64,000 nucleotides of DNA from Anaerococcus jeddahensis (GTDB taxonomy: Bacteria > Bacillota > Clostridia > Tissierellales > Peptoniphilaceae), in assembly GCF_001182725.1 (NCBI RefSeq), contig NZ_CWHU01000005.1, positions 806,001 through 870,000 of the forward strand, given 5' to 3'. Positions within the stretch are counted from its first letter, which is position 1, and every line of letters starts with the position of its first letter. The notes under the pieces are model-generated. The model was not told where the DNA came from and did no database searches. It was given only the letters and a program-made list of their open reading frames with translations. The position numbers were made by a program, and so were the translations under genes. Of the stretch, positions 2,668 to 64,000 are shown one piece after another.

Positions 2668-3475
2668 TATTTATTTTGTACCAACTCCAATTGGAAATTT
2701 GGAAGATATGACAATTAGGGCAATAAATGTCTTGAAAAATGTGGATATTATCGCTTGTGAAGATACAAGAGAAAGCAAAAAGCTTTTAAATTATTTTGAT
2801 ATTAATAAAAAGCTAACTTCCTACCACAAATTTAATGAAAAACAAAAATCTGAGGAAATTATAAAAAATGTAAAAGAAGGCATGACTTATGCTGTCATTA
2901 CTGACCAAGGAATGCCTGGGATTTCTGATCCAGGCCATATTTTGATTAAAGAATGTATTAAGGAAAATATTTCTTATACAATTTTACCTGGTCCATCTTC
3001 CATCCTTACAGCCTTAATTGCTAGTGGTTTTGATAATGATAAATTTTCTTTTTATGGTTTTATTCCGAAGAAAAATTCTGACAAGAAAAAATTATATGAT
3101 GAGTTAGAAAAAGAAAATAAGACTTGTATTTTATTTGACACTCCCCATGATTTAGAAAATACCATAAATGATTTTAAAAAAATATTTCCTCAAAGAAAAC
3201 TTGCCATTACAAGAGAGCTTAGCAAAAAATTTGAGCAATATCAGATTTTTAAAATTGAAGATATTGATATAGAAAATTTAACTTTGAAGGGAGAATTTGT
3301 TCTAATTTTAGAAAAAAATAATTTAGAAAAAAATTTAGATATTTCATCCTATAAAGATGAGGTTTTAAAAATGAAAAAAGAAGGTGAATCTACCAAAGAT
3401 ATTGTAAAATCTTTGAAAAAATCCACCCATTTTTCAAAAAATGAAATTTATGATTTTGTCATAAGTTTAGACTAA
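2657..3475 (+). CDS. rsmI: 16S rRNA 2'-O-ribose C1402 methyltransferase RsmI
   Basis: Methylates the ribose of C1402 in 16S rRNA. The 272-aa product carries family landmarks: YFVPTPIGNLEDMT at the start, ACEDTRES near residue 35, DQGMPGISDPG near 86 and the PGPSS motif near 110. AAGGAGG at 2638-2644 lies within the preceding gene, 12 bases before this ATG, giving coupled translation with the trmN6-like gene. Its 3' end overlaps the dhaM 3' end by 9 bases in a convergent arrangement, and no terminator hairpin is visible between them. Confidence 0.95.
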   Translation: MDYSIYFVPTPIGNLEDMTIRAINVLKNVDIIACEDTRESKKLLNYFDINKKLTSYHKFNEKQKSEEIIKNVKEGMTYAVITDQGMPGISDPGHILIKECIKENISYTILPGPSSILTALIASGFDNDKFSFYGFIPKKNSDKKKLYDELEKENKTCILFDTPHDLENTINDFKKIFPQRKLAITRELSKKFEQYQIFKIEDIDIENLTLKGEFVLILEKNNLEKNLDISSYKDEVLKMKKEGESTKDIVKSLKKSTHFSKNEIYDFVISLD

Positions 3476-3865
3476 ATTGTCCAATTTGTTTACTGGGTAA
3501 GTTTTTAAATAAGATGCTATTTCATCCAAACTTTGTCCTGCAGATGCGTTTACTGCTGTTTGAACACTTGTTTCAATTAAAGGTGTACCTGCAAGATAAA
3601 CTTTGGATTTTTGTTCGTCATCAAGCATATCTATAGCCATTTGACAATTAAGCATAGATGAACCCAAGTCAAAAAATACAACAAGTCCTTCATCTTTCGC
3701 GTATTTTCCAATAAGCTCATTTATTTCATCAAAATTCGATCCAATATTACCATCATTGTCGCCACCACTTGTAATAATTTCTACTCCTGGTGCCATTTGA
3801 ATAAGAATTTCTCTTAATCCTTCTGCTAATTTTTTGCTGTGACTTGCTAATAAAATATTAACCAT
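3467..3865 (-). CDS. dhaM: Dihydroxyacetone kinase phosphotransfer subunit DhaM (EIIA-Man-type domain)
   Basis: Relays phosphate from the PTS protein HPr to the ADP bound on DhaL. The 132-aa protein is a single EIIA-mannose-like domain without the HPr and EI domains fused in E. coli DhaM, which is the common Firmicute form. The active-site histidine is in ASHSKKLAEG (His9), and GGDNDGNIGSN and FFDLGSSMLNCQMA match the family. It is the last gene of dhaKLM; its start overlaps the dhaL end by 8 bases. Confidence 0.94.
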   Translation of the reverse strand: MVNILLASHSKKLAEGLREILIQMAPGVEIITSGGDNDGNIGSNFDEINELIGKYAKDEGLVVFFDLGSSMLNCQMAIDMLDDEQKSKVYLAGTPLIETSVQTAVNASAGQSLDEIASYLKTYPVNKLDNLV

Positions 3866-4457
3866 CTATTTCTCCTATTGCACTTTTTATACATAAAAAA
3901 GATGAATAAGCACCCGGATCAATATGTCCTACTGATCTTTCTCCAAGATATGCAGCCCTACCTTTTCGAGCCTTAATATCTTTGGTTGCTTCCATTTTTT
4001 CTTCTGCAAGTTTTAAAATCTGATCAAAACTCAAATTATTTTTCAAAGCTTCTGACACTGGTGAGAGTACATCAACCATAGTTTTATCTCCAACTTGAGC
4101 CTTACCTCTCATAATTACTCCATCAACTCCATCAGAAAAAGCTTTTGAAAAAGTATCCTTATTCAAACTTATTTCTCCATCCAAAGATTGGGCAAATTTC
4201 ATAAAAAATGTTCCATACAAAGGACCACTTGCTCCTCCAACATTTGAAATTAAAGTCATGGCAATTTTATTAAAGAGAGTTTTTAAATCCCTGTAATCTT
4301 CATTCATGGCATCTTTTACTTTTCTAAATCCTTTAGCCATATTATAACCATGATCACCATCACCAATTGCCCTGTCCAAATCTGTAAGATATTCTTCGTT
4401 TTCTATTATGGTGTTTGATAAATTTATTATCCTATTTTTTATTTTTTCTATATCCAT
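3858..4457 (-). CDS. dhaL: Dihydroxyacetone kinase ADP-binding subunit DhaL
   Basis: Carries a tightly bound ADP that is phosphorylated by DhaM and passes phosphate to dihydroxyacetone on DhaK. LDRAIGDGDHGYNM near residue 30 holds the Asp cluster that coordinates magnesium, and GGASGPLYGTFF near 75 is the nucleotide-binding loop. I start at the ATG at 4457 (MDIEKIKNR) because AGGGG sits 5 bases upstream; the longer frame would need a TTG five codons earlier. The start codon lies just after the dhaK stop, so translation is likely coupled. Confidence 0.94.
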   Translation of the reverse strand: MDIEKIKNRIINLSNTIIENEEYLTDLDRAIGDGDHGYNMAKGFRKVKDAMNEDYRDLKTLFNKIAMTLISNVGGASGPLYGTFFMKFAQSLDGEISLNKDTFSKAFSDGVDGVIMRGKAQVGDKTMVDVLSPVSEALKNNLSFDQILKLAEEKMEATKDIKARKGRAAYLGERSVGHIDPGAYSSFLCIKSAIGEIDG

Positions 4458-4458
4458 C

Positions 4459-5445
4459 TTATCCCCTAACAATATCTACATCTTCTTCTAATAATTTAAA
4501 AATTTCCTCATCAACCTTAAATAAGGTCAAAGAAAATCCAGCCATATCCATACTAGTCATAAAATTACCTAGGAAGGTTTTTTTGATATTTATATTTTTT
4601 TCTTTCAAATAATCATGACAGAAATTATTTACAACAAATAATTCCATTTCGGTTGTCTGACCCATGCCATTAACCATCAATACAAAATCTCCATCAAGAT
4701 TTTCAAAATCTTTTAAAATATAGTCTAAAAGTTCTTTTGAAATTTCATCAGCACTTTTTATTTTTTCTTGTTTTATACCAGGTTCACCATGAATTCCAAT
4801 TCCAATTTCCATATCTTCTTCAGATAATTCAAAACTTTCTTTACCAGAAATTGGATTAATGCAAGGTTTAATAGCCATGCCCATAGATTTTATATTTTTT
4901 ACAATTTTTTCTGCCATAGATTTCACTTCATCTAAGCTTTTTCCATCTCTTGCCATAGCGCCCAATACTTTGTGAACAAAAACAGTTCCAGCAATTCCTC
5001 TTCTTCCAGTTGTATAAGTAGAATCTTCAACTGCAACATCATCATTTACAATAATATAATCCACTTTGATACCTTCCATCTCTGCCATATCTTTTGCCAT
5101 TTCAAAATTCATGACATCGCCCGTATAATTTTTTACAACCATAAAGACACCTTCACCTGAATCAGCAAGTTTTATAGCTTCTAAAACTTGGTCAGGAGTT
5201 GGAGATGTAAAAATTTCTCCACAAATTGCACAATCGAGCATACCATCGCCAACATAGCCTGCGTGAGCTGGTTCGTGACCACTTCCACCACCTGAAATAA
5301 GTCCTACCTTTCCTTTTATTGGCAAATCTTTTCTGTAAACGATTTTTAAGTCTTCGTTTATTTTTACCTTGTCATAATTTGCTTTTTGAAGGCCTTTTAA
5401 CATTTGAGTTAAAATCTTGTCCTTATCATTAATTATTTTTTTCAT
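4459..5445 (-). CDS. dhaK: Dihydroxyacetone kinase substrate-binding subunit DhaK
   Basis: Binds dihydroxyacetone covalently through a histidine and receives phosphate from DhaL, yielding dihydroxyacetone phosphate for glycolysis. GGGSGHEPAHAGYVG (residues 52-66) and GEIFTSPTPDQV are the fold signatures; the substrate-binding histidine is in GIGIHGEPG (about His219). The 328-aa length is normal. I use the ATG at 5445, which has AAGGGTGG upstream, rather than the GTG three codons earlier. First gene of dhaKLM. No DhaR/DhaS-type regulator or glycerol dehydrogenase is adjacent. Confidence 0.96.
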   Translation of the reverse strand: MKKIINDKDKILTQMLKGLQKANYDKVKINEDLKIVYRKDLPIKGKVGLISGGGSGHEPAHAGYVGDGMLDCAICGEIFTSPTPDQVLEAIKLADSGEGVFMVVKNYTGDVMNFEMAKDMAEMEGIKVDYIIVNDDVAVEDSTYTTGRRGIAGTVFVHKVLGAMARDGKSLDEVKSMAEKIVKNIKSMGMAIKPCINPISGKESFELSEEDMEIGIGIHGEPGIKQEKIKSADEISKELLDYILKDFENLDGDFVLMVNGMGQTTEMELFVVNNFCHDYLKEKNINIKKTFLGNFMTSMDMAGFSLTLFKVDEEIFKLLEEDVDIVRG

Positions 5446-5509
5446 AAATACCACCCTTTCTTAATAAAAATATACCCAAATAAAAAAATAATATTTGCTG
5501 TTTTTACAA

Positions 5510-5545
5510 TAAGACTAGAATGAAAAATTTAATATAAGTCTAGAA
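5510..5545. promoter_or_regulatory. Near-perfect 11-bp direct repeat upstream of dhaK
   Basis: TAAGACTAGAA at 5510-5520 recurs as TAAGTCTAGAA at 5535-5545 with one mismatch, start to start 25 bases. It lies 65-100 bases upstream of dhaK in the 413-base spacer between the divergent dhaK and flavodoxin genes. The rest of that spacer (5546-5758) is A/T-rich filler in which I see no gene. A regulator binding the same DNA face twice is possible but unproven. Confidence 0.3.
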
Positions 5546-5758
5546 AAAATAAAAATTTTTTTACAAACTTTTAATCTAAAAACAAAACATTAAATTTTAA
5601 AATTAATAGAAAATATTTTAAAAATCAGATTCAAAATATTTTTTTATTATTAGAAAATTTTAATAAATGAATTGATGAATTTATTTTGAAAATTATCTTT
5701 GTAAATATTAAAATCTCAATATTTTTTTATAATATTATAAAAATAAATAAAATATTAC

Positions 5759-5787
5759 TTGACACAATAGGAAAAATAATTTATTAT
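5759..5787 (+). promoter_or_regulatory. Consensus sigma-A promoter for flavodoxin operon
   Basis: TTGACA at 5759-5764, a 17-base spacer, and TATTAT at 5782-5787. Predicted start of transcription is near 5794, giving a leader of about 65 bases that contains the Fur-box-like site at 5800-5814 and the AAAGGAG ribosome binding site. Confidence 0.75.
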
Positions 5788-5799
5788 TTGATTAGGTAT

Positions 5800-5814
5800 T
5801 GATATAGGTTATCA
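5800..5814. promoter_or_regulatory. Fur-box-like operator before flavodoxin
   Basis: TGATATAGGTTATCA at 5800-5814 is a 7-1-7 inverted repeat that matches the TGATAATnATTATCA Fur-family consensus at 11 of 14 positions by my count, and the hexamer series continues with GTATCA at 5815-5820. It sits just downstream of the predicted transcription start, a repression position. Iron-responsive control of flavodoxin is well known, so Fur is the likely ligand, but no fur gene is in the window. Confidence 0.5.
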
Positions 5815-5858
5815 GTATCAAAGAAATATTTTAATTCTAAAGGAGAAAATTTAAATTT

Positions 5859-6293
5859 ATGAAGAAAGTTGCAATCGTTTATTGGTCTGGCACTGGAAAC
5901 ACAGAAGCTATGGCTAATGAAATTTTTGAAGAACTTAAAAAAAATGATCTAGAAGTTGAAATGCTTGATTCAAATTCTTTTACAAAAGATTCAATTGATG
6001 ATTTTGATGGATTTGCTTTTGGATGTCCTGCTATGGGAAGCGAAGAATTAGAAGAAACAGAATTTGAACCAATGTTTGAAAGTGTTGAAAATTTTCTTTC
6101 AAATAAACCTGTTTTAATTTTTGGTTCTTACCAATGGGCTGACGGTGAATGGATGGATATTTGGCAAGATAGATGTAAAAATGATGGAATAAATTTAGTT
6201 CGTGACGGACTTATTGCCTACGATACTCCTGACGATGAAGCTTTGGAAGAATGTAGAAAGGCTGCAATAGATTTGTCAAAAGCTTTAGGTTAA
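5859..6293 (+). CDS. Flavodoxin
   Basis: Small FMN-binding electron carrier (144 aa) that can replace ferredoxin when iron is scarce. The phosphate-binding loop reads WSGTGNTEAM (residues 9-18) after a first beta strand KKVAIVY; the aromatic isoalloxazine contacts are plausibly W90 and W94 in SYQWADGEW. The acidic surface is typical of short-chain clostridial flavodoxins. It lies 4 bases upstream of a DUF3793 gene, with a consensus promoter and Fur-box-like site in front. Confidence 0.95.
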   Translation: MKKVAIVYWSGTGNTEAMANEIFEELKKNDLEVEMLDSNSFTKDSIDDFDGFAFGCPAMGSEELEETEFEPMFESVENFLSNKPVLIFGSYQWADGEWMDIWQDRCKNDGINLVRDGLIAYDTPDDEALEECRKAAIDLSKALG

Positions 6294-6885: not shown

Positions 6886-7477
6886 TTACTTTTAATAAAT
6901 CACTTATTTTTTCAATCTTTATATCTGCAAGCTCTCCCTCTTTTTCTTCTCCGTAGCCGTATTTTGCAAAAATGGATATATTATTATTCAAAAAACCTGC
7001 TTTAACATCGGAGAGCCTATCGCCTACTATGACAAAATTATCAATTTTTTCTATTTTTATAATTTCAGCTTTTGATTTATAAGAGTAGTCTTCACCTACC
7101 AGATATTTTTCAAAATAAGAATCTAAATTATATATTTTTCTTGCACTATCTATATATTTTTTTGAGCAAGATGATAAAATTATCAGTTCGTGTTTATTTT
7201 TTAGGATATTTAATACTTTTTTTGTTTCATCATACAAACTACCAAATTCTTTCATATTTTCTATCATAAAATTTCCTGTTGTTTCAATCAATTTTTCTTT
7301 GTCATAGGAATCATCTAGAAAATCATCCCAAATTTTTCTTGGTGGATAACCAAGATATGATTTTGGATTAAGATTTGGTTTTTTTATTTTAAATTTTTTT
7401 AGGCAATCATAAAATGCTTTTTCATAAATTTCGTCACTTTTATGGATAGTTCCATCAAAGTCAAAAATTAATTTCAT
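6872..7477 (-). CDS. HAD-superfamily phosphatase in the riboflavin operon
   Basis: HAD subfamily IA hydrolase (201 aa): the nucleophile motif FDFDGTIH (Asp6, Asp8) opens the protein, motif II LSSCS is near residue 98 and motif [15 protein letters not shown] near 150. Its start overlaps the ribH stop by 4 bases (ATGA type), so it is translated with the riboflavin genes. Riboflavin synthesis needs a phosphatase for 5-amino-6-(5-phosphoribitylamino)uracil, and in Bacillus HAD enzymes do this. That role is therefore a reasonable inference for this gene; FMN or other sugar-phosphate substrates are alternatives. Confidence 0.8.
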
Positions 7478-7932
7478 ATAAGATCCATTAGATTTGCCAT
7501 TTCAATTGCAGATATAGCTGCATCACTTCCCTTATTTCCTGCTTTTGTACCTGCTCTTTGAACAGCTTGCTCGATTGTATCTGTTGTAACAACTCCAAAA
7601 ATAATTGGCTTGCCACTTTCAAGAGAAACATTTGCTATTCCTTTTGAAACTTCAGAGCAAACATAATCATAATGAGAAGTGTCCCCTCTTATAACTGCTC
7701 CCAAACAAATTACAGCATCATAATCCTTGTGGGCCAATTTTTTTGCAGCAAGAGGAATTTCAAAAGCACCTGGAACTCTTACAAGTTCTATTTCTTCATC
7801 TTTTACTTCATGTCTTTTTAGTGTATCAAGACATCCTTCTACGAGTCTATCTGTTATAAAATGATTAAATCTTGCAACTACAATTGCATATTTTTTTCCA
7901 TTTGATACTAAATTTGCGCTATATTCTTTCAT
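7474..7932 (-). CDS. ribH: 6,7-dimethyl-8-ribityllumazine synthase
   Basis: Condenses 5-amino-6-ribitylaminouracil with 3,4-dihydroxybutanone-4-phosphate to give lumazine. At 152 aa it has the standard length. [14 protein letters not shown] near residue 20 is the substrate loop, [14 protein letters not shown] near 55 and [14 protein letters not shown] near 78 carry the catalytic His. It starts one base after the ribBA stop and overlaps the HAD gene at its end. The ribH product normally assembles into a 60-mer or pentamer. Confidence 0.97.
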
Positions 7933-9147
7933 TTATCTCTCCTTAAATTCTTTTAAATCGTGACCCATTCTAATGGCCTTTGTTTTTAAATAAACCCTAT
8001 CAACATGGTTTGAGTGAATTTCTATTGGTACTCTTTTGTTAACTTTTATATTATATTTTTCAACTTGTTTAATTTTATCAGGATTATTTGTCATTAAATC
8101 AATTGATTTTACTCCCAATTCTTTTAACATTAAACATGCTATTTTATAATTTCTTAAATCTGGAGCAAAACCTAGTTTTAAATTTGCATCAACGGTATCG
8201 TAACCTTCTTCTTGTAGATGATAAGCTTTGATTTTATTAAATAAACCAATTCCTCTTCCCTCTTGTCTTAGGTAAAGAATTATTCCTGATCCATTTTTAT
8301 CAATCATTTCCATGGACTTGTGAAGTTGGTTTCCACAATCACACCTATTAGATGAAAAAACATCTCCAGTCAAACATTCAGAATGAATTCTTGTTAAAAT
8401 ATTTTCTCCATCAACTTTTCCCTTTATCAAAGCCAAGTGTTCTTTATTTTCAATTTTGTCATAAAAACTTATAGCCTTAAATTTTCCGTGGTCTGTTGGA
8501 AGATTGATAATATTTGTTTTTTCTAAAAAATCTTCTTCATTTTTTGAAAAATCTATCTTATTTTCTTTGATATATTTTTTTATCTCAGCAACGCTTGTCA
8601 TTTTCATTCCAAGTTTTTCAGCAAGTTCAACTACAGCTTTACCTCTTAACATATGACCATCATCGGCCATAATTTCACAACATAAGCCTATTTCTTTTAG
8701 ATTTGAGATTTTCATCAAATCTATTGTAGCTTCAGTGTGACCATCCCTTTCTAAAACTCCCCCATCTTTTGCAACAAGAGGAAATACATGACCAGGTCTT
8801 CTAAAATCACTTGCTTTTGTATTATCATCTGCAATGCCTCTTATTGTTTCAGCTCTTTCAAAAGCAGAAATTCCAGTTTTTGTGTTGACATGGTCAATTG
8901 AAACTGTGAAAGCTGTTTGGTGATTATCAGTGTTATTTTTAACCATCATATTAAGGTCAAATTGTTTAGCAATATTTTTTCCTATTGGAGTACAAATTAA
9001 ACCTCTAGCATATTTTGCCATAATATTTATCATTTCACCAGTTACATTTTCACCAGCACAAATCATATCAGCTTCATTTTCCCTATCTTCATCGTCAGTT
9101 ACTATAATTATTTCGTTATTTTGTAATGCTTTAATAATATCTTCCAT
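7933..9147 (-). CDS. ribBA: Bifunctional 3,4-dihydroxybutanone-4-phosphate synthase / GTP cyclohydrolase II
   Basis: Supplies both precursors of riboflavin. Residues about 1-200 are RibB, with the acidic metal-binding loop DDEDRENEADM near residue 19 and GHTEATIDLM near 135. Residues about 205-404 are RibA, with the zinc ligands in HSECLTGDVFSSNRCDCG and the catalytic stretch LRQEGRGIGL. Length 404 aa is usual for the fused enzyme. Located between ribE and ribH, 5 bases after ribE. Confidence 0.97.
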   Translation of the reverse strand: MEDIIKALQNNEIIIVTDDEDRENEADMICAGENVTGEMINIMAKYARGLICTPIGKNIAKQFDLNMMVKNNTDNHQTAFTVSIDHVNTKTGISAFERAETIRGIADDNTKASDFRRPGHVFPLVAKDGGVLERDGHTEATIDLMKISNLKEIGLCCEIMADDGHMLRGKAVVELAEKLGMKMTSVAEIKKYIKENKIDFSKNEEDFLEKTNIINLPTDHGKFKAISFYDKIENKEHLALIKGKVDGENILTRIHSECLTGDVFSSNRCDCGNQLHKSMEMIDKNGSGIILYLRQEGRGIGLFNKIKAYHLQEEGYDTVDANLKLGFAPDLRNYKIACLMLKELGVKSIDLMTNNPDKIKQVEKYNIKVNKRVPIEIHSNHVDRVYLKTKAIRMGHDLKEFKER

Positions 9148-55416: not shown

Positions 55417-56089
55417 TATTCTCATCTCCCACTATTTTCCCATCGACAATTGTTATTACCCTTTCTGCCTCTAGGGCTATAGACTCATCATGGGTGATTA
55501 CTATAATTGTCTGTTTTAAAGTCCTGTTAAAATATTTTAAAATTTCAATTATTTCTCTTGAATTCTCCCTGTCTAGGTTTCCCGTTGGTTCATCAGCGAG
55601 TACAAGAGACGGAGAATAGATAAGACTCCTTGCTATGGCAACCCTTTGTTGCTGGCCTCCTGATAGTTCACTTGGAAAAGAGTTAAGTTTACTTTCTATA
55701 CCCAATTTTTTAACTATATCTGAAAATTCATCTTGATTTGTTTTTCCTTTATCTAGTTTTAGTGGAAGTTCTATATTATGACGAACTGTTAAATTTGGAA
55801 TCAAATTATAAAACTGGTAAATTAGTCCAACTTTTCTTCTTCTAAAGTAGGCTAATTCCTTGGAAGAATACTTTGATATGTCGTTACCATCTATATAAAC
55901 CTTGCCATCATCTGGACTATCCACTCCTCCTATGATATGTAAAAGTGTTGATTTGCCAGACCCACTTGGTCCAACAATGGCGACAAATTCACCTCTTTCA
56001 ATTTCAAGGTTGACACCGTCTAAGGCAATAACCTTAGAATTGCCCTCACCGTATTCTTTTCTTAAATTTTCAACTTTTAATATTTCCAT
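55409..56089 (-). CDS. ABC transporter ATPase (MacB/LolD type), copy A
   Basis: 226 aa with Walker A GPSGSGKST near residue 38, signature LSGGQQQR near 143, Walker B VLADEPT and the H-loop THDESIAL. The stretch from FRRRKVGLIYQFYNL to the signature is almost the same as in copy B. It overlaps the permease start by 8 bases and lies 52 bases after the kinase gene. AAGGAGG precedes the ATG. Confidence 0.95.
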   Translation of the reverse strand: MEILKVENLRKEYGEGNSKVIALDGVNLEIERGEFVAIVGPSGSGKSTLLHIIGGVDSPDDGKVYIDGNDISKYSSKELAYFRRRKVGLIYQFYNLIPNLTVRHNIELPLKLDKGKTNQDEFSDIVKKLGIESKLNSFPSELSGGQQQRVAIARSLIYSPSLVLADEPTGNLDRENSREIIEILKYFNRTLKQTIIVITHDESIALEAERVITIVDGKIVGDENNE

Positions 56090-56141
56090 ACTTGCCTCCT
56101 TTTTCTTATGTCAAGGTAAGCATATAAAAGTAAAGTGATTT

Positions 56142-57002
56142 TTAGGTGACATTGTAAAATTTAATTTCAAATCTTGCACCCTCTTTAGTATTTGAAACAG
56201 AAATTTCTCCCTTGTTTTTTTCGACAATTGTCTTAGCCATAGCAAGGCCAATTCCAAAACCATTTGAATCAGGGGTTTTATAAAATCGTTTAAAGATTTT
56301 TTTCATATTCTCTTTTTCTATTCCTCCGCCATTATCTTCAATGATTAAGCTTGTATAGAGGGGATTTTTGTATGATGAAACCACGATTTTATCACAAATT
56401 GGTCTATTATCAGCATTCTTTATAATATTGATAAAAGCTTCTGCTATCCAATAAAAATCTCCACAAATACTATTTTCCTTTAAACTCTCTTCTATTTCTA
56501 CATTGGTAAATTTTTTAAAATTCAAACTATCCAAAGAATAATCTACTAACTCACCTAAATTAACTTGTTCTTTTTTCATAAGATTTTTGTTAGCATCAAG
56601 GCTTGATAGTTTAAGTAAAATATCTGATAGAGAATTTAATCTGATAGTTTGCCTTTTTAAAATTCCTATATCTTCAATATCTGGAAAATCTGGCTCCAAA
56701 TTTTCTATGGAAAAAAGCATAGATGTAATGGGAGTTTTTATTTGATGAGCGATGTCTTCTAGGTATTCTATTTGCTTTTCACTATTTTTTGTGCTTATCT
56801 CTTTGGCTTCTACTATTTCTATAAAAAGTTTGTAAATCTTATCTTCTAAAATCGAAAAATCATCTTGCTTCATTGGGATTTTATAGTCCTGATTTTTCAT
56901 ATTTTCTATCAGATCTATAAGCTCATTTATCCTATTTTTCTTTCTTTTTTCTAAAAAATAATAAAGAAGTCCCAGACTTATTATCCAAAATACATATATC
57001 AT
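56142..57002 (-). CDS. Intramembrane-sensing histidine kinase (BceS-like)
   Basis: 286 aa. Only one N-terminal hydrophobic segment (IYVFWIISLGLLYYFLE, residues 2-18) and no external sensor domain, which fits kinases that sense through a partner ABC permease. The H-box is DIAHQIKTPITSM near residue 90, the N-box-like segment AFINIIKNADN near 185 and the G boxes DNGGGI and GFGIGLAMAK near 225-255. It overlaps the response-regulator stop codon (TAATG) and is followed by the ABC pair. Confidence 0.9.
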   Translation of the reverse strand: MIYVFWIISLGLLYYFLEKRKKNRINELIDLIENMKNQDYKIPMKQDDFSILEDKIYKLFIEIVEAKEISTKNSEKQIEYLEDIAHQIKTPITSMLFSIENLEPDFPDIEDIGILKRQTIRLNSLSDILLKLSSLDANKNLMKKEQVNLGELVDYSLDSLNFKKFTNVEIEESLKENSICGDFYWIAEAFINIIKNADNRPICDKIVVSSYKNPLYTSLIIEDNGGGIEKENMKKIFKRFYKTPDSNGFGIGLAMAKTIVEKNKGEISVSNTKEGARFEIKFYNVT

Positions 57003-57652
57003 TAGTCCATCCTATAGCCAATTCCTCTAACAGTAGTGATAACTTCCCTATCAAGTTTTTCTCTAATTCTCTTAATAGTTGATGTGAGAGTATTGTCATT
57101 TACAAACCTATCCCTATCTTCCCAGAACATTTCTAAAAGTTGACATCTGGTATAAACTCTATGGGGATTTTTTATAAATAAGACTAGGATTTCATATTCT
57201 AGCGAAGTTAAATCTACTAGATTTCCCTTAAAATAAACTTTTGACTGATTTAAATCTATTTTTATATCCTTATAAGATATACTTTTATCTTGTGATATAG
57301 GTATTGTCCTTAAAACCGCATCAATTCTTGCCCTTAATATTGCAAGGGAAAATGGTTTAGTTAAATAGTCGTCTGCTCCTTGATCTAGAGATTCAATTAT
57401 AAAATCTTCATCATTTTTTACTGTTGTTACAATAACTCTTATGTCCTTATCTTTTAATTTTTCTATCAAATGTTGACCTTCTTTATCTGGTAGATTTATA
57501 TCAAGTAGTGCCACATCTATATCTACATTCATCTTATAGCTTGCTTCATAAAAAGATGATGCAATCTCTACCTCATAACCATTATTAAGCAAATACTTTT
57601 CCATTTGTAAAGCTATTTCTTTATTATCTTCTATGATCAAAATATTTTTCAT
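57002..57652 (-). CDS. OmpR/PhoB-family response regulator
   Basis: 216 aa. The receiver domain has the acidic pair IIEDN and the phospho-acceptor in VALLDINLPDKEG (about Asp47), K near 99 (LTKPFSLAIL), and an OmpR-type winged helix to the C-terminus (DLTSLEYEIL, VTTVRGIGYRMD). I start at MKNILIIED (57652), 7 bases after AAGGGAT; the longer frame adds five residues. With the kinase it would turn on the downstream ABC genes. Confidence 0.93.
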   Translation of the reverse strand: MKNILIIEDNKEIALQMEKYLLNNGYEVEIASSFYEASYKMNVDIDVALLDINLPDKEGQHLIEKLKDKDIRVIVTTVKNDEDFIIESLDQGADDYLTKPFSLAILRARIDAVLRTIPISQDKSISYKDIKIDLNQSKVYFKGNLVDLTSLEYEILVLFIKNPHRVYTRCQLLEMFWEDRDRFVNDNTLTSTIKRIREKLDREVITTVRGIGYRMD

Positions 57653-57758
57653 TTCTAATCCCTTCATTTTTAATTTTCAAAAATAACATTACTTTAAGTA
57701 TAGCATTATATTCTAAATTAAAAGAAATATTTTGGGATTAGTAAATTCGCTAATAAAT

Positions 57759-58982
57759 TCAAATGATTTTATGAAATTTATTAACTGACGGCAATTTTCT
57801 TATATTTTCATTTAATGCCCAAAATATATCAACTATAAGTATAATTAAGCTTCCAATAAATATGGCTTTTGAACTCGATAAATATTCTCCAAGATAACCT
57901 CCTAATAAGGCACCTATCGGAGCCATAAAAGTAGAAATACCTACCATAGCTCCCATAGCAGAACCGATTTTTTCACTTGGAACTATTATTTGAACCATAG
58001 TTTGAGCATAAACATTTACAAGACCAACAACAAACCGTCCAATCCCATACAAAGATACTGCTATTTTTATATTATTTTCAAAATTAGAAAAAAGGATCCA
58101 AGCAAAAGCTACAATCATCATTCCATAAATATATAATTTTCCTAAAGATATTTCTTTTAATTTTGGAAATCCAGCAAACAAAGACCCAAGTAAAAGACCT
58201 GCTCCCATTCCTGCAAGCATTAAACTATAAAATATTTCATTTTGTGCAAAAGCAGGTAAAACTGCACTTATTGATGTAGCTGAAAAGTTAATGAAAACAA
58301 TTCCAAAAACTAGGGCAAAAATTCTTGAATCTTTAAATAAATTAAGTCCATCTTTGAGAGATTTGAAGTGATTTTTTATTATATTTCCTTCAAATTTATC
58401 TTCTATTTTATTGGAATGGCTAAGTTTTTTTGATAAAAAACAAAATAAAATCCCTGTCAAAATAAAACTTATGGAATCAGCATAAAAAGCTGACATAAAA
58501 CCAAATATTGATATAATAAAACCTGCAAAGGTATCAAAAATTGCATTTGATCCTTGATAAGCCATAGTCATCAAAGAATTTCCTGTAACAAGTTCTTTTT
58601 CAGAAAAAATTTTTGGAAGTAGAGATATTTGACCTGGATAAACAAGTTGATTAATCAATGAAATTATTGGCATTATAATCATTATGTGATAGACACTTAA
58701 TTTCCCAAATTTATATAAAAATGGAATAATTAAAATTAAAACTGCTTGAAAAAATTGAGATAAAATCAAAAATTTTTTCATATTAATTTTATCCAAAATT
58801 GGACTTAATAATAATTGAACTATTGCTGTTGATGAGGTAAGAAAAAGAGTAATACCCGAATAAATTGTAGATCCACTCATTTTATAAACTAGAAGAGTCG
58901 ATGCAATAGCATAAAGGCTATCTCCAAAATTTGTTATTAGTCGTCCTAAAAGCAGGACATAAAAATCTTTGTTTTTAATCAT
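57759..58982 (-). CDS. Major facilitator superfamily transporter
   Basis: 407 aa with about 12 helices. GRLITNFGDSLYAIAS near residue 14 and the GIxxxxxQ-type loops are of the DHA/MFS_1 group typically exporting drugs or small molecules. AAGGAGA sits upstream with ATG codons at 58991 (too close) and 58982 (ten bases away); I prefer 58982. A 12-bp motif 17-28 bases before this start is repeated in front of the regulator gene. The substrate is unknown. Confidence 0.85.
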   Translation of the reverse strand: MIKNKDFYVLLLGRLITNFGDSLYAIASTLLVYKMSGSTIYSGITLFLTSSTAIVQLLLSPILDKINMKKFLILSQFFQAVLILIIPFLYKFGKLSVYHIMIIMPIISLINQLVYPGQISLLPKIFSEKELVTGNSLMTMAYQGSNAIFDTFAGFIISIFGFMSAFYADSISFILTGILFCFLSKKLSHSNKIEDKFEGNIIKNHFKSLKDGLNLFKDSRIFALVFGIVFINFSATSISAVLPAFAQNEIFYSLMLAGMGAGLLLGSLFAGFPKLKEISLGKLYIYGMMIVAFAWILFSNFENNIKIAVSLYGIGRFVVGLVNVYAQTMVQIIVPSEKIGSAMGAMVGISTFMAPIGALLGGYLGEYLSSSKAIFIGSLIILIVDIFWALNENIRKLPSVNKFHKII

Positions 58983-58998
58983 TTTTAACATTCTCCTT

Positions 58999-59010
58999 AT
59001 ATTTAACGTT
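58999..59010. promoter_or_regulatory. 12-bp motif before the MFS gene (copy 1)
   Basis: ATATTTAACGTT at 58999-59010 is the exact reverse complement of AACGTTAAATAT at 59560-59571 before the ArsR-like regulator gene. It is a likely operator shared by regulator and transporter. Confidence 0.5.
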
Positions 59011-59065
59011 TTAATTAATTTGACAGTTGTGTATTTTTTTACCAGTAAGGATTAACTTACTGGTT

Positions 59066-59494
59066 TTAAGATAATTTATAAATTTGTACTTGAAAACTTT
59101 CTTCAATATCTTCATCTTCACTATATTTTTTTATCAAATCATTTAAGTCTTTTTCAAATGATTCATAGGATTTGCCAGAAATTTTAAAAGAAAATACCTT
59201 CTCTTCTAAATTTTTATTAAATATTTCACTATTAGGAATAAAAGCCTTGGCTACTGGCAAAAAATATTTTTGAGTGATGCCATTTATAAGTTCCGTATCA
59301 ACAACTTCTATAATTTTATTTTGTTCAAGAATTTTTAAGTGGTAGTGAATTTTTGACCTGCTAACCCCAAGAGCATCTGATAAATCTTGAGCATTTTTTG
59401 GACTAGTTCCCAAAGTCATAATTATTTTAAGCCTTATAGGATCGCTTACAATATTAATTTCTTCCAGTGAATTTAAAATATGAACCTCTTTCAA
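59066..59494 (-). CDS. ArsR-like winged-helix transcriptional regulator
   Basis: 142 aa. SLEEINIVSDPIRLKIIMTLG opens an ArsR-type fold; the recognition helix region is DALGVSRSKIHYHLKILEQNKII near residue 41. It belongs to the HTH_20/ArsR-like family that usually has an effector-binding C-terminal half. The start is TTG at 59494: GGAGGTG is six bases upstream, and no ATG is well placed. It is 75 bases upstream of the MFS gene and the probable regulator of it. Confidence 0.85.
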   Translation of the reverse strand: MKEVHILNSLEEINIVSDPIRLKIIMTLGTSPKNAQDLSDALGVSRSKIHYHLKILEQNKIIEVVDTELINGITQKYFLPVAKAFIPNSEIFNKNLEEKVFSFKISGKSYESFEKDLNDLIKKYSEDEDIEESFQVQIYKLS

Positions 59495-59559
59495 AATACA
59501 CCTCCATATCTTATTTTCTTTATTGTAACTTAAATTTACTATACCGTCAAATAATTTTG

Positions 59560-59571
59560 AACGTTAAATAT
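59560..59571. promoter_or_regulatory. 12-bp motif before the regulator gene (copy 2)
   Basis: AACGTTAAATAT, the inverse of the motif before the MFS gene, about 66 bases upstream of the regulator start. Confidence 0.5.
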
Positions 59572-59584
59572 TTATAATCAAAAA

Positions 59585-59612
59585 ACTCTCAAAATTTAAA
59601 AATCCTGAGAGT
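59585..59612 (-). terminator. Intrinsic terminator after the membrane protein gene
   Basis: ACTCTCA and TGAGAGT form a 7-bp stem with TTTTTTGATT on the minus strand. Confidence 0.8.
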
Positions 59613-59640
59613 GTATAATTAAAATCAAAGTGAATTTTTA

Positions 59641-60210
59641 TTATTCTTTTTCTTTATATGTTTTTAAATTCATCAACACTTCTGTATGAGGTAAATATTT
59701 TATGGAAGCTGATACATTATCATAATCATTCCACTTCTCTTCTTCCTTGTCATAAGTTTTGGAATCTATTTCAAAAATTTTAATCTCGTTTTTATCATTA
59801 TATCCAGAAATTCTATAAAATATTGAGTATTCATAATTCATATCTTCTTCAAAACTTACATAATTAATTTTTAAGGATTTAGGCGACTTTAAATATTTAA
59901 AATCTAAAATTGGAGCTTTCAATAAATAAAAAAATCCAATCCCAGATAGTATCGCACAAATCCACCATATAATAATATATTTTTTTCCTTCCTTAAAATA
60001 AAAAGCAAATGCTAAGATAAGAGTTATTACAATAACAATAAATAAACGAAAAACACAATCACAAATAAAACCCATAATTCCCTCTTGATAATACCCAAAA
60101 GCATGGCTTAGAATCAGATAGAAGGAAGTTATTGAAATTAGTGCAAAAACTAAAAGAACAAAATCAATAAAAACTTTCCATTTAAAAGAAATTTCAGCCC
60201 TATTTTCCAT
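59641..60210 (-). CDS. Hypothetical membrane protein
   Basis: 189 aa; no family recognised. About three hydrophobic helices (residues 12-32, 48-70 and 78-97), then a soluble tail with DFKYLKSPKSLKINYVSF and YEYSIFYRI. AGGAGG precedes the ATG. No neighbours in the same direction on the promoter side. Confidence 0.6.
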   Translation of the reverse strand: MENRAEISFKWKVFIDFVLLVFALISITSFYLILSHAFGYYQEGIMGFICDCVFRLFIVIVITLILAFAFYFKEGKKYIIIWWICAILSGIGFFYLLKAPILDFKYLKSPKSLKINYVSFEEDMNYEYSIFYRISGYNDKNEIKIFEIDSKTYDKEEEKWNDYDNVSASIKYLPHTEVLMNLKTYKEKE

Positions 60211-60302
60211 TTTCTCCTCCTATAGAATATAATTTCAAAATATTTTCAAATTTATATTAAAATTTTATTAATATTTTGTTAATTTTTTATTTTAATAAGA
60301 AA

Positions 60303-60355
60303 GTCAAGTCCATAATATTGTGCTAATAAATTTTACACAACATTATGGACTTGAC
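60303..60355. mobile_element. 53-bp palindrome built from two IS256-like terminal repeats
   Basis: GTCAAGTCCATAAT (60303-60316) and ATTATGGACTTGAC (60342-60355) are perfect 14-bp inverted repeats. The right half (with the inner ATAAATTTTACACAAC) matches 28 of 31 bases of the IS right end at 48311-48341. Nothing lies between them but 25 bases. It is a MITE-like relic or two fused ends of the same IS family. Confidence 0.7.
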
Positions 60356-60412
60356 ATAAACTTAGACCTCTAAAAAAATATGTATATATTTATCTAAGTT
60401 AATTAATACTTA

Positions 60413-60912
60413 CTAAAGTATTTTTTCTGCAAGTAAAATTGTTCCGCCTAATATTTCTACTTCTTTGATAAGCTTAAAGCCATTCTTTTTCCAAAAAGCT
60501 TTTGACTGAGGATTTCCCTTGTCAATACCTAGGCGAACTTTTGCTTTCCCTATTTTTTTAACATAAACTAGAACACTTTCATTAATTTCAGAGCCGATAC
60601 CTTGACCTTGGTATAAAATATTTACCATAAAAAATCCAATAAAACAGGTTTCTTCGTCTGGATAGTCATCTAATATATCTAAAATAGCAACTAAAACTTC
60701 ATCTTCGAAAAATCCTAAATAATATTTATTATCTTCATTTACTCCTTCAGGTTTTAGGTAAAGGTCGCTTAGAATTTGTTCTCTACTTATCTTTGCTTGA
60801 CGTAATGATAATATAGCTTATTGCCTTGGCACAAACTGTATATGGTTTCAATATCATTTTCTGTAAGTTTTTCAACTTTATAAGTTTTACTCAAGTTTTT
60901 TATGGTTAACAT
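60413..60912 (-). pseudogene. GNAT-family acetyltransferase split by one frameshift
   Basis: From ATG at 60912 the frame reads MLTIKNLSKTYKVEKL, then IYSLCQGNKLYYHY and stops after about 43 codons. One frame over, the sequence resumes AKISREQILSDLYL and continues through YYLGFFEDEVLVAIL, the acetyl-CoA loop YQGQGIGSEINESV and KAFWKKNGFKLIKE to the stop at 60413. Removing one base near 60800 would restore a normal GNAT of about 166 aa. The 71-aa piece at 60413-60628 is only its end. Confidence 0.8.
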
Positions 60913-61096
60913 TTTTGTCACCTTGAATTCTTCCTCTTTAAATATCAATTATCTTATTTTCTATTCCAACAAACTTTCCAAGTGGTTTGAGTGATCAGTA
61001 TTGATAAATTTTAATATTTTAAGTAAGCGTCGTATGTGGGAATATATCCATAAGTATATTTCTTATGTTTTAAATTATCTCTAAATCTAAATTTAC

Positions 61097-61246
61097 TTAT
61101 AATATATAATTATCATTTGTATAAACAAAATAGCACAAATATAGTAGACGAAATTTATTTATTATTTTTGGTTTTGCTAATACATAGTCTTTTGAGTGTT
61201 CTTCAAATAAAACTTCTTTTTTCTTATTCAGTTTTTCTATTCGCAT
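61097..61246 (-). CDS. Small hypothetical ORF (49 aa)
   Basis: ATG at 61246 is preceded by GAGG 6 bases upstream. The product is basic at first (MRIEKLNKKKEVLFEEHSKD) and hydrophobic at the end (LLYLCYFVY). Just upstream on the same strand is a short open stretch ending EARIVYDVENKCYFLACYI with a stop next to this start. Neither is recognised. The rest of 60930-61358 holds only A/T-rich sequence and no other feature. Confidence 0.3.
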   Translation of the reverse strand: MRIEKLNKKKEVLFEEHSKDYVLAKPKIINKFRLLYLCYFVYTNDNYIL

Positions 61247-61358
61247 AATTTACCTCATATATAACAGGCAAGAAAATAACACTTATTTTCAACATCATAC
61301 ACAATTCTTGCTTCTCACATTTCTTGGGACAGATAAGATAATTTTAAGTAAACAAAAA

Positions 61359-62120
<762 letters not shown>

Positions 62121-62153
62121 AATTTTCCCACCTTTCCTTTTAATATTAGTTAA

Positions 62154-62182
62154 AGTATACTAAAATAGTCGGATTTTGTCAA
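62154..62182 (-). promoter_or_regulatory. Consensus sigma-A promoter of cadD
   Basis: On the minus strand TTGACA (62177-62182), a 17-base spacer, TATACT (62154-62159). Transcription should start near 62147, upstream of the leader ORF. Confidence 0.8.
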
Positions 62183-62353
62183 TTATGCTGATAGATATCA
62201 ACACAAATTATGAAGACTAATAATTAACTTTCTATATGTTCGCATTCCTTACTTATAAAATCCGAATGCTTTAGTCACTAGGCACTATGCCATCAAATAT
62301 AAGTTTTATAAATAATAATTAATTGAACTCACGTATATAAGTGAAATAGAAAA

Positions 62354-62379
62354 TCGATAGATTTTTTAATTTCTATCGA
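62354..62379 (-). terminator. Hairpin downstream of the EVE-nuclease gene
   Basis: TCGATAGA and TCTATCGA form a perfect 8-bp stem with a 10-base loop, then TTTTC on the minus strand, 134 bases after the gene's stop. It may be its terminator. The remainder of 62183-62512 is A/T-rich with no gene seen; GCATTC...GAATGC at 62242-62269 is a weak inverted repeat. Confidence 0.5.
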
Positions 62380-62512
62380 CAACTTTGTATTTCTTTTATA
62401 TTTTTGAGAAACTCATTTTCCTGACTCTTTCATCTACACTCTCCTATCTAGGTATAATTAAAATATTTCCAATTTTTTAGTCAAATTAAATCTATTTATT
62501 AATTTGTAAAAT

Positions 62513-63985
62513 CTATAATTTATTTTTCCCTATATGTTTGTAAAGTTTGAAAAAATTATCTCCATTTTTCAATTGATCCCAAGAAAATTGAATTATATTA
62601 TCAGAATAATCATCGGTTATCGTTGTTAACCAAATTCCTTCTCTAGAGGCAACCATTGAATATTTGGTATTTAATATTTTCGCATATCCTCTTGCCTGGG
62701 TTTTAGATTTTTCTAATAACTTCTTTGTATATATCGAATATTTAGCTTCGACTATTAAATCTGCCTTTTGATGTCCCAATGATATTTCAGGATTTACTAC
62801 AAAATCAGGTATTAATAAATGATTATTATTTCCAACTCTTATATACAATTGTTTTATATAATCTTCTTCTGTATACCCCAATTTTTTTAATAATGGAATT
62901 ATAAGCTTCTTTTCTACATCCTTTTCGTTTGCAATTTCAGCATAATTATTATTTATTTCAAATTGAAATCTTTTCAGTGTAGAATTACTCAAATCAAGTA
63001 TTCTATTATATGATGATGGACTTAGCTCTACCCCATTAATTCCTTGCATATTTTTTCTGACGATTGGAAGTTTAGAAAATATATCATCCTCCTTTAATTT
63101 TTTTAAAGGAATCCTATCTAGGTTTATTGGTCTAGATATATAAGTACACCTATAATAATAGAAGAACGGATCATTAAATCCTACTGAAACACTTCTCCAT
63201 ATCGAATCAATAGCGCTTACCGGCGATGTTAAATACATAACTATAGCGTCCCCTACCTCTGTATCAGGATTACATTGCCATGGTATTATAATGTCGTCTT
63301 CTTTTGATAAAAATATATCATCTTTAGAGCTTCCAATAAAATAGGCACTGTTCGTATCTGGTATATCATTAACAATAAATGAATTAATACCACCAATATA
63401 TTTGGGAGCAAAGTCATATATAAATACATAGAGTTCGTATGGATTCATATTATAATTTATCCTAAAATCTTGGAATGTTTCGCAAATTGACATATAGTAA
63501 GCAAGTCTACCTATATAATCTTTTTTTGCAGGAATTTTAGGTAATTTTATGTCAAATTCATTAGATATAGTCTCTAGTACATTAAAATTACATTTAAAAT
63601 AATAAGGGATAAATAACTCAGGTAGTTCTATTGAAAAATATGTAGTGTAGTATTCCATCCAATATGAAAAATGCTCAAAGGCTTCTTTTCCATTATTATT
63701 AAAATCTCTCAGAAAGGTTTGCTGAATATAATTTGATACTTCTTTAAAATCATAGCTTTCTGACATAAAAAATCTTATATATTCATTTAAATCTATGAAA
63801 AGTTTATCTAGCTGAAATTGTATATCTTTACTAATTACTTCACTTGGACAGTATTCTTTATGAAGTTTATATATAAAATCTTTGTAATTATCTGTATAGG
63901 TATTCTGTAGATTTTCCTTGAAAATTTTTATAGCTTCCTTGCCTGGTCCATTCAAATAAAGTTGCCATATATAGTTGTTAAACAT
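62513..63985 (-). CDS. Predicted EVE-like domain / HsdR-N-type PD-(D/E)XK nuclease fusion
   Basis: 490 aa, complete. Residues 1-190 are helical and unrecognised. About 213-345 reads like an EVE (PUA-fold) domain: DIIIPWQCNPDTEVGDAIVMY, a pattern with the WxxNP opening and the GDAIVMYLTSP strand, then FYYYRCTYISRP and LSPSSYNRILDL. The C-terminus (about 375-440) is an HsdR-N-like nuclease: EKKLIIPLLKKLGYTEED, then PDFVV (Asp404) and IVEAKYS (Glu423, Lys425). EVE domains bind modified bases, so a modification-dependent restriction role is inferred. The ribosome binding site is weak (AGGTAAT). Upstream neighbours are outside the window. Confidence 0.6.
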   Translation of the reverse strand: MFNNYIWQLYLNGPGKEAIKIFKENLQNTYTDNYKDFIYKLHKEYCPSEVISKDIQFQLDKLFIDLNEYIRFFMSESYDFKEVSNYIQQTFLRDFNNNGKEAFEHFSYWMEYYTTYFSIELPELFIPYYFKCNFNVLETISNEFDIKLPKIPAKKDYIGRLAYYMSICETFQDFRINYNMNPYELYVFIYDFAPKYIGGINSFIVNDIPDTNSAYFIGSSKDDIFLSKEDDIIIPWQCNPDTEVGDAIVMYLTSPVSAIDSIWRSVSVGFNDPFFYYYRCTYISRPINLDRIPLKKLKEDDIFSKLPIVRKNMQGINGVELSPSSYNRILDLSNSTLKRFQFEINNNYAEIANEKDVEKKLIIPLLKKLGYTEEDYIKQLYIRVGNNNHLLIPDFVVNPEISLGHQKADLIVEAKYSIYTKKLLEKSKTQARGYAKILNTKYSMVASREGIWLTTITDDYSDNIIQFSWDQLKNGDNFFKLYKHIGKNKL

Positions 63986-64000
63986 TTTTATTACCTGTTA

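Follow-up and report, generated by a model that had tools for sequence, protein, structure and literature searches.

We propose that a 490-amino-acid protein of Anaerococcus jeddahensis, encoded at positions 62513-63985 of the minus strand of the window (the 64,000-nucleotide stretch analysed here, 806001-870000 of contig 5 in a 1.9-Mb host genome of five contigs), is a restriction endonuclease of type IV, dependent on DNA modification and working as a single chain without a motor; we give this reading a probability of about 0.7. A sequence-only reading of this DNA had named the protein a candidate modification-dependent restriction protein, and the suggestion gains weight from a predicted EVE fold, from nuclease residues kept in 19 of 19 aligned rows, and from defence genes near some of the relatives. 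In the mechanism that we envisage, the EVE domain would scan duplex DNA and dock the protein where it flips a modified base into an aromatic pocket, the base being most likely a derivative of cytosine carried by phage DNA; the HsdR_N-type PD-(D/E)xK domain (D394, E413 and K415, with Q430 and Y434) would then hydrolyse the DNA nearby, probably as a dimer, with neither an NTPase motor nor an obligatory partner gene. The helical N-terminal domain probably helps with DNA binding, oligomerisation or autoinhibition. If active, such proteins would form a compact one-gene family of modification-dependent nucleases in Clostridia and related Firmicutes, Desulfovibrio and Deinococcus, offering a testable EVE/PD-(D/E)xK enzyme to stand beside the characterised EVE-HNH one, and they might also be of use as reagents in the detection of modified DNA.

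An intact gene for a three-domain protein

The gene is an intact open reading frame with an ATG start, and in GC content (0.272) it differs little from the window as a whole (0.278). AlphaFold2, given our family alignment A1, returned a full-length model with a mean pLDDT of 85.3 and a pTM of 0.72, in which three domains are predicted: a helical domain at residues ~1-203 (63377-63985, minus strand, as are all features of the gene), an EVE domain of the PUA superfamily at residues ~209-341 (62963-63361), which would be the sensor of the modified base, and an HsdR_N-type PD-(D/E)xK nuclease at residues ~344-490 (62516-62956). No GTPase or helicase was matched anywhere in the 490-residue chain in profile searches. 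Neither PADLOC nor NCBIfam has a name for the window protein, and their matches to family members were weak and scattered (best 0.0011 and 0.0047, respectively); the family is likewise unnamed in Pfam, and it stands in the PHROG collection without a function, as PHROG 37753, which covers residues 2-483 of the window protein (E 2.5e-75). Matches of the full-length profile to cGAS (best E 0.08) were set aside as insignificant, covering only part of the helical region (profile positions 35-144).

A pattern scan of genome contigs gave 45 matching stretches, among which 20 relatives were confirmed, 40-58% identical over nearly their full length and far beyond chance; this count is a lower bound, since the scan needs exact short peptides. 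Their hosts are gut and rumen Clostridia known from metagenome-assembled genomes, Kallipyga, Pseudoramibacter, Ruminococcus and Desulfovibrio. One of them (L006) ends at residue 453, where its contig ends. Two further relatives, 25-26% identical, lie on Deinococcus plasmids (L026 and L027, two of 72,556 plasmid records), and a frameshift-split one (L041) was found with the N-terminal profile. As L007 and L008 encode an identical protein, these amount to 23 distinct loci, the window included. Alignment A1 holds the window protein and 16 of the 20 relatives; L008 was excluded as a duplicate, and L012, L017 and L018 because they are broken. The 19 rows referred to throughout are its 17 members plus the two Deinococcus proteins, aligned in A2.

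An EVE domain as putative sensor of modified bases

The earlier reading had suggested an EVE-like domain, and whether this part of the protein takes a PUA/EVE fold at all was put to structural alignment of the predicted model. When residues 209-340 were compared with 998 chains by VIA-align, EVE-type structures filled the top places (Z 12.3 to 9.8), above ASCH (from Z 8.5) and YTH (from Z 7.8). The first match was 1zce (Z 12.3, rmsd 2.7 over 123 residues), followed among others by 2gbs (Z 12.0), 2ar1 (Z 11.2) and 2g2x (Z 10.8). All four are titled structural-genomics or hypothetical proteins in the structure listing; we take them, together with 1wmm and DUF55, to be EVE proteins. The same region aligned with human THYN1 bound to 5mC DNA (5j3e, Z 10.6) and with the modification-dependent enzyme VcaM4I (6yex, Z 9.2), both of which are EVE proteins (PMC7897488). 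A Foldseek search of the full model listed the same kinds of structures, with a best E of 1.8e-3 and none at or below 1e-3 in the PDB, and when the sequences of solved structures were searched with profiles of the EVE domain and of the nuclease, nothing significant came up. The Pfam EVE model, PF01878, did not match the window protein and had no match in the host genome at E up to 10; it weakly matched the Deinococcus relative L026 (E 0.042) and was absent from L027 at E up to 0.1. EVE membership thus rests on predicted structure, beyond the reach of the Pfam model.

This domain is the best conserved of the three, with a mean column identity of 73%; the nuclease follows at 63% and the N-terminal domain at 54%. 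Ten of its residues (W236, Q237, D246, Y251, P273, F274, F275, Y277, Q314 and G315) are present in 19 of 19 rows, while W263, F270 and D272 are not kept in all of them. The last two of the ten fall in a conserved loop (residues 309-318, 63032-63061), of which residues 309-315 are the sole stretch of the full model with a pLDDT below 50. In VcaM4I, three residues (P24, W82 and Y130) hold the flipped base, whilst the intercalating Q128 fills the gap (PMC7897488). By analogy, we infer that the cluster of W236, Y251 and F274-Y277 may form the base pocket of our protein, with Q314 as a putative base-flipping wedge.

The N-terminal helical domain and the clostridial EVE-McrB proteins

The helical character proposed for the N-terminal domain is borne out by structure prediction: residues 1-208, folded alone by AlphaFold2, reached a mean pLDDT of 89.4. 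The domain has no Pfam name, and Foldseek returned nothing for it (best E 3.3). Four Ogg2 glycosylases came first when it was compared with 146 chains by VIA-align (Z 5.9, 5.5, 5.0 and 4.6, the next being 2.1), Z values that in this range are weak for helical domains. A stretch reading L-P-x-I-P-x-K154 does resemble the hairpin of HhH-GPD proteins, but no conserved Asp stands after it at the spacing of that motif. Profile comparison lends such a fold no support: the N-terminal profile met Nth and Ogg proteins with a probability of 0-0.2%, while Ogg and Nth, compared with each other as a positive control, reached 74.5%. We regard an HhH-GPD/Ogg2 glycosylase fold as unproven.

Another possible kinship is with type IV proteins of Clostridia in which an EVE domain is joined to McrB (L070-L072), and which share the EVE sensor with our family. 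PF01878 was matched in four of 196 genomes, in three of the four within long open reading frames, and two clostridial EVE-McrB proteins have a helical-looking N-terminal region of ~230 residues. Against single proteins, our N-terminal profile A3 gave low probabilities (L072 5.8%, L070 and L071 0.4% each, L069 0.1%); as the profiles of both sides were widened, the probability went from 5.5% (A3 against A6) to 21.6% (A7 against A6) and 33.3% (A7 against A8), dropping to 25.1% when A7 met the widest EVE-McrB profile (A9, 24 rows). The best of these, one result among comparisons with several families, has a pairwise E of 4.5e-4 and a score of 32.4; as controls, shuffling the columns 100 times yielded no score above 18.5, and reversing the profiles yielded 13.4 and 14.3. 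However, an unrelated pair, the McrB domain and Nth, scored 23.9 (3.2%), above all 100 shuffles, so that the shuffles understate the background. The likeness of the two N-terminal domains is, at the level of sequence profiles, suggestive only. The window protein differs in lacking an AAA/GTPase motor in its chain, and no McrC partner was seen beside the gene.

Could our family have arisen by taking the N-terminal helical domain and the EVE domain of McrB GTPase/McrC systems and joining them directly to an HsdR-type nuclease, as a McrB without its motor? We consider this idea doubtful; if true, the protein would be a one-gene type IV enzyme that achieves through simple recruitment what McrBC achieves with a motor, and that can travel within BREX loci as an additional module. 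As side observations, one clostridial EVE-McrB gene is followed by mcrC (L082), and the ~230-residue N-terminal domain recurs in further clostridial McrB-type proteins (L073-L077, L079, L080 and L085-L100) and on 16 IMG/VR contigs; two examples scanned had no Pfam family above the cut-off.

A predicted HsdR_N-type nuclease domain with a conserved motif

The C-terminal domain had been read as an HsdR-N-type fold, and here structure prediction and structural alignment agree, placing it at ~346-490. Residues 346-490 aligned with the HsdR fragment 3h1t (Z 9.7, rmsd 3.8 over 117 residues) and with the type IIG enzymes BpuSI (3s1s, Z 8.6) and DrdV (7lvv and 7lo5, Z 8.2). The Pfam family HSDR_N was matched by 11 of 17 members at E up to 1 (best member 2.5e-5), and in the window protein at 16.5 bits, below the gathering score of 25.1. 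A fold search of viral models (BFVD) with the model of the whole protein gave a single match with E below 1e-3, the 396-residue phage protein A0A6J5NY69 (E 9.8e-4); its annotation is a type I restriction R N-terminal domain.

The catalytic residues had earlier been placed at 403-404 and 423-425, which are in fact LG and LLE. The predicted motif instead comprises P393-D394 (D394 at 62804-62806), E413-A414-K415 (62741-62749) and Q430xxxY434 (62684-62698). At these corrected positions the claim that the PD...ExK residues are kept stands: all 19 rows carry D394, E413, K415, Q430 and Y434. The QxxxY motif is known in the HsdR subunit of EcoR124I and in RecB-like nucleases (PMC4454674).

It is at this point that we must consider a different substrate. 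EVE and YTH domains are thought elsewhere to read modified RNA (PMC7641849 and PMC11090510), and the protein might be an EVE-guided nuclease acting on modified tRNA or rRNA, or an abortive-infection protein, rather than one that cuts phage DNA. The nuclease domain, on the other hand, matches HsdR and type IIG enzymes, which cut DNA, and the QxxxY motif that it retains is the one known from HsdR and RecB-like nucleases; we regard both alternatives as improbable and favour modification-dependent cleavage of DNA.

Relation to described systems

The type IV principle behind this proposal has already been published, as a prediction: EVE-PD(D/E)xK proteins are described as putative type IV enzymes by Bell, Wolf and Koonin (2020), with the same pairing of domains and the same predicted function as here (PMC7641849). 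The arrangement, which the earlier reading did not know as a described system, is thus less unfamiliar than it seemed there: the core pairing was published, whereas no described system with the helical, EVE and HsdR_N domains together was found in the open-licence literature among the matches listed. What sets our family apart from that class, as described there, is the added conserved helical N-terminal domain of ~200 residues and the HsdR_N-type nuclease with QxxxY.

The characterised example of an EVE-guided enzyme is VcaM4I, an EVE-HNH protein that flips 5mC and 5hmC and restricts T4gt; it too is a single chain with no motor, but its nuclease is of the HNH type, its EVE domain is N-terminal (residues 1-147), and it has no helical N-terminal domain (PMC7897488). 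With HsdR N-terminal nucleases and type IIG enzymes (3h1t, BpuSI and DrdV), our protein shares the fold and the catalytic motif, QxxxY being as in EcoR124I HsdR; unlike them, its chain has no domain for helicase, methylase or specificity functions. The present analysis adds a subfamily that is defined and widely conserved, whose N-terminal domain has no name and whose nuclease is of the HsdR_N/QxxxY kind, with members inside BREX and near restriction-modification genes.

Defence neighbours and the question of a cognate methyltransferase

In its host, the gene occupies a slot of ~3.06 kb (62218-65277 in window numbering, running past the window end at 64000; 3218-6277 of the neighbouring stretch L002), which it shares with a gene pair for an HTH protein and a membrane protein. 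The slot is flanked by a cadmium-transporter gene on one side and a VWA/AAA operon on the other; in a genome of the same genus (G024), the segment is absent and the two flanks lie 172 bp apart (blastn of L002 against L029). The DNA of the HTH and membrane-protein pair is also matched, at 76-78%, in other genomes of the genus (L031-L033). Scans of the slot for promoters, terminators and repeats gave nothing above chance or of use. The surroundings had been described as decayed and mobile pieces, and this holds in part: the ~3-kb slot is variable and, downstream of the gene, a 71-residue fragment of a GNAT acetyltransferase (60413-60628) covers only the C-terminal part of its Pfam profile, but no transposase or integrase was recognised by eye in the ORF lists of window positions 56000-64000 and of L002, chosen ORFs of which were scanned with Pfam. 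The DNA beyond 63985, which is the upstream side of this minus-strand gene, was read in L002, and no BREX genes were recognised by eye around the gene.

BREX or restriction-modification genes are found at five of the 23 distinct loci, as a plain count. In Deinococcus sp. QL22 (L026), the gene lies within a BREX locus: pglZ and brxL flank it on one side, and genes for a DarT-like ADP-ribosyltransferase, PglX and BrxC on the other; PADLOC confirmed PglZ, BrxL and PglX, though not the DarT-like protein. This placement recalls BrxU, a type IV enzyme of the GmrSD family that is encoded in a BREX locus between brxC and pglX, and that belongs to another protein family (DUF262/DUF1524; PMC8565348). 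In L026 (8869-12257), the next two genes after the family gene carry GTPase annotations and also lie within the BREX locus. The second Deinococcus relative (L027) has an MmeI-like type IIG enzyme ~2.4 kb downstream, L005 has an Eco57I-type methyltransferase and a ResIII helicase upstream, with ORFs alike in size and start by eye in L006, and L017 has a type II DNA methyltransferase near the gene. At the remaining 18 loci, no restriction or BREX gene was recognised in flanks of differing lengths, of which chosen neighbours were profile-scanned; several of these genes look like lone genes, sitting by eye among housekeeping genes.

Perhaps, then, the protein works with a cognate methyltransferase, following the classic logic of restriction-modification, with the EVE domain recognising self so that modified DNA is spared. 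DNA methyltransferase genes near four of the relatives (L005, L017, L026 and L027) would suit such a scheme, as would the host genome, in which PF01555 is matched five times at E up to 0.01 (three of them over the cut-off) and one C5-cytosine methyltransferase is encoded. However, the methyltransferases near those relatives are of differing types, and no DNA methyltransferase was seen by eye in the 20 kb of L002, where one ORF resembles an RNA methyltransferase. On balance, sparing of modified DNA has poor odds, and we retain restriction that depends on modification as the preferred reading.

The host's C5-cytosine methyltransferase nevertheless limits what a modification-dependent enzyme could do. 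Apparently intact, it is encoded ~129 kb from the gene (L101 1471-2436; contig 5, 999162-1000085), and our enzyme therefore cannot simply cut every 5mC; we infer that it must be tied to a sequence context, or else favour a modification bulkier than 5mC, for instance 5hmC or sugar-bearing 5hmC. The methyltransferase gene adjoins a topoisomerase-like gene, in what by eye is a mobile-element-like setting.

A further feature of the neighbourhoods concerns three Clostridia loci. In L017, an HTH gene with a GIY-YIG match just below the Pfam cut-off, encoding one fused protein, directly precedes the gene (7374-7985), and in L004 (6422-7994) and L012 (6421-7993), separate GIY-YIG-like and HTH genes lie directly upstream, as judged by eye, the HTH gene of L004 having also been scanned. 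These genes could possibly be a regulatory or accessory module.

A patchily distributed gene, with purifying selection in close pairs

The gene is present in one of 31 genomes of the genus and in one of 398 sampled genomes of the phylum, in both cases the host's own, and in three of 130 genomes of the family, where the other two share an exact 500-base stretch with L005 and L006. Searching 245 genomes with the N-terminal profile left two credible matches, the host included, once two others had been dropped: G564 (E 2.7e-5), where the match lies in a 732-residue ORF that is membrane-protein-like by eye, and G641 (E 1.4e-4), where it lies in a 67-residue frame with two stops. This patchiness, together with some broken copies, would fit a horizontally moving defence gene.

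Full-gene dN/dS in three close pairs of intact copies is 0.135, 0.183 and 0.166, and these copies are thus under purifying selection; domain by domain, the values range from 0.04 to 0.41, the highest being that of the EVE part of the L010/L016 pair, which has very few changes. That the gene is decayed or non-functional cargo is very improbable: frameshifts or truncations have broken the gene at four of the 23 distinct loci (L012, L017, L018 and L041), but the window copy is an intact ORF, selection acts on the close pairs as described, and the catalytic residues stand in every one of the 19 rows. The breaks in the four copies are at different places, and assembly error, decay or switching are all possible sources.

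As to viruses, tblastn against 50,697 phage records gave no relative, nor was one confirmed in IMG/VR, which was scanned three times using the whole protein or parts of it. PHROG 37753 matches all 17 members of A1 as well as both Deinococcus proteins, and viral or prophage members of the family therefore exist in the PHROG library.
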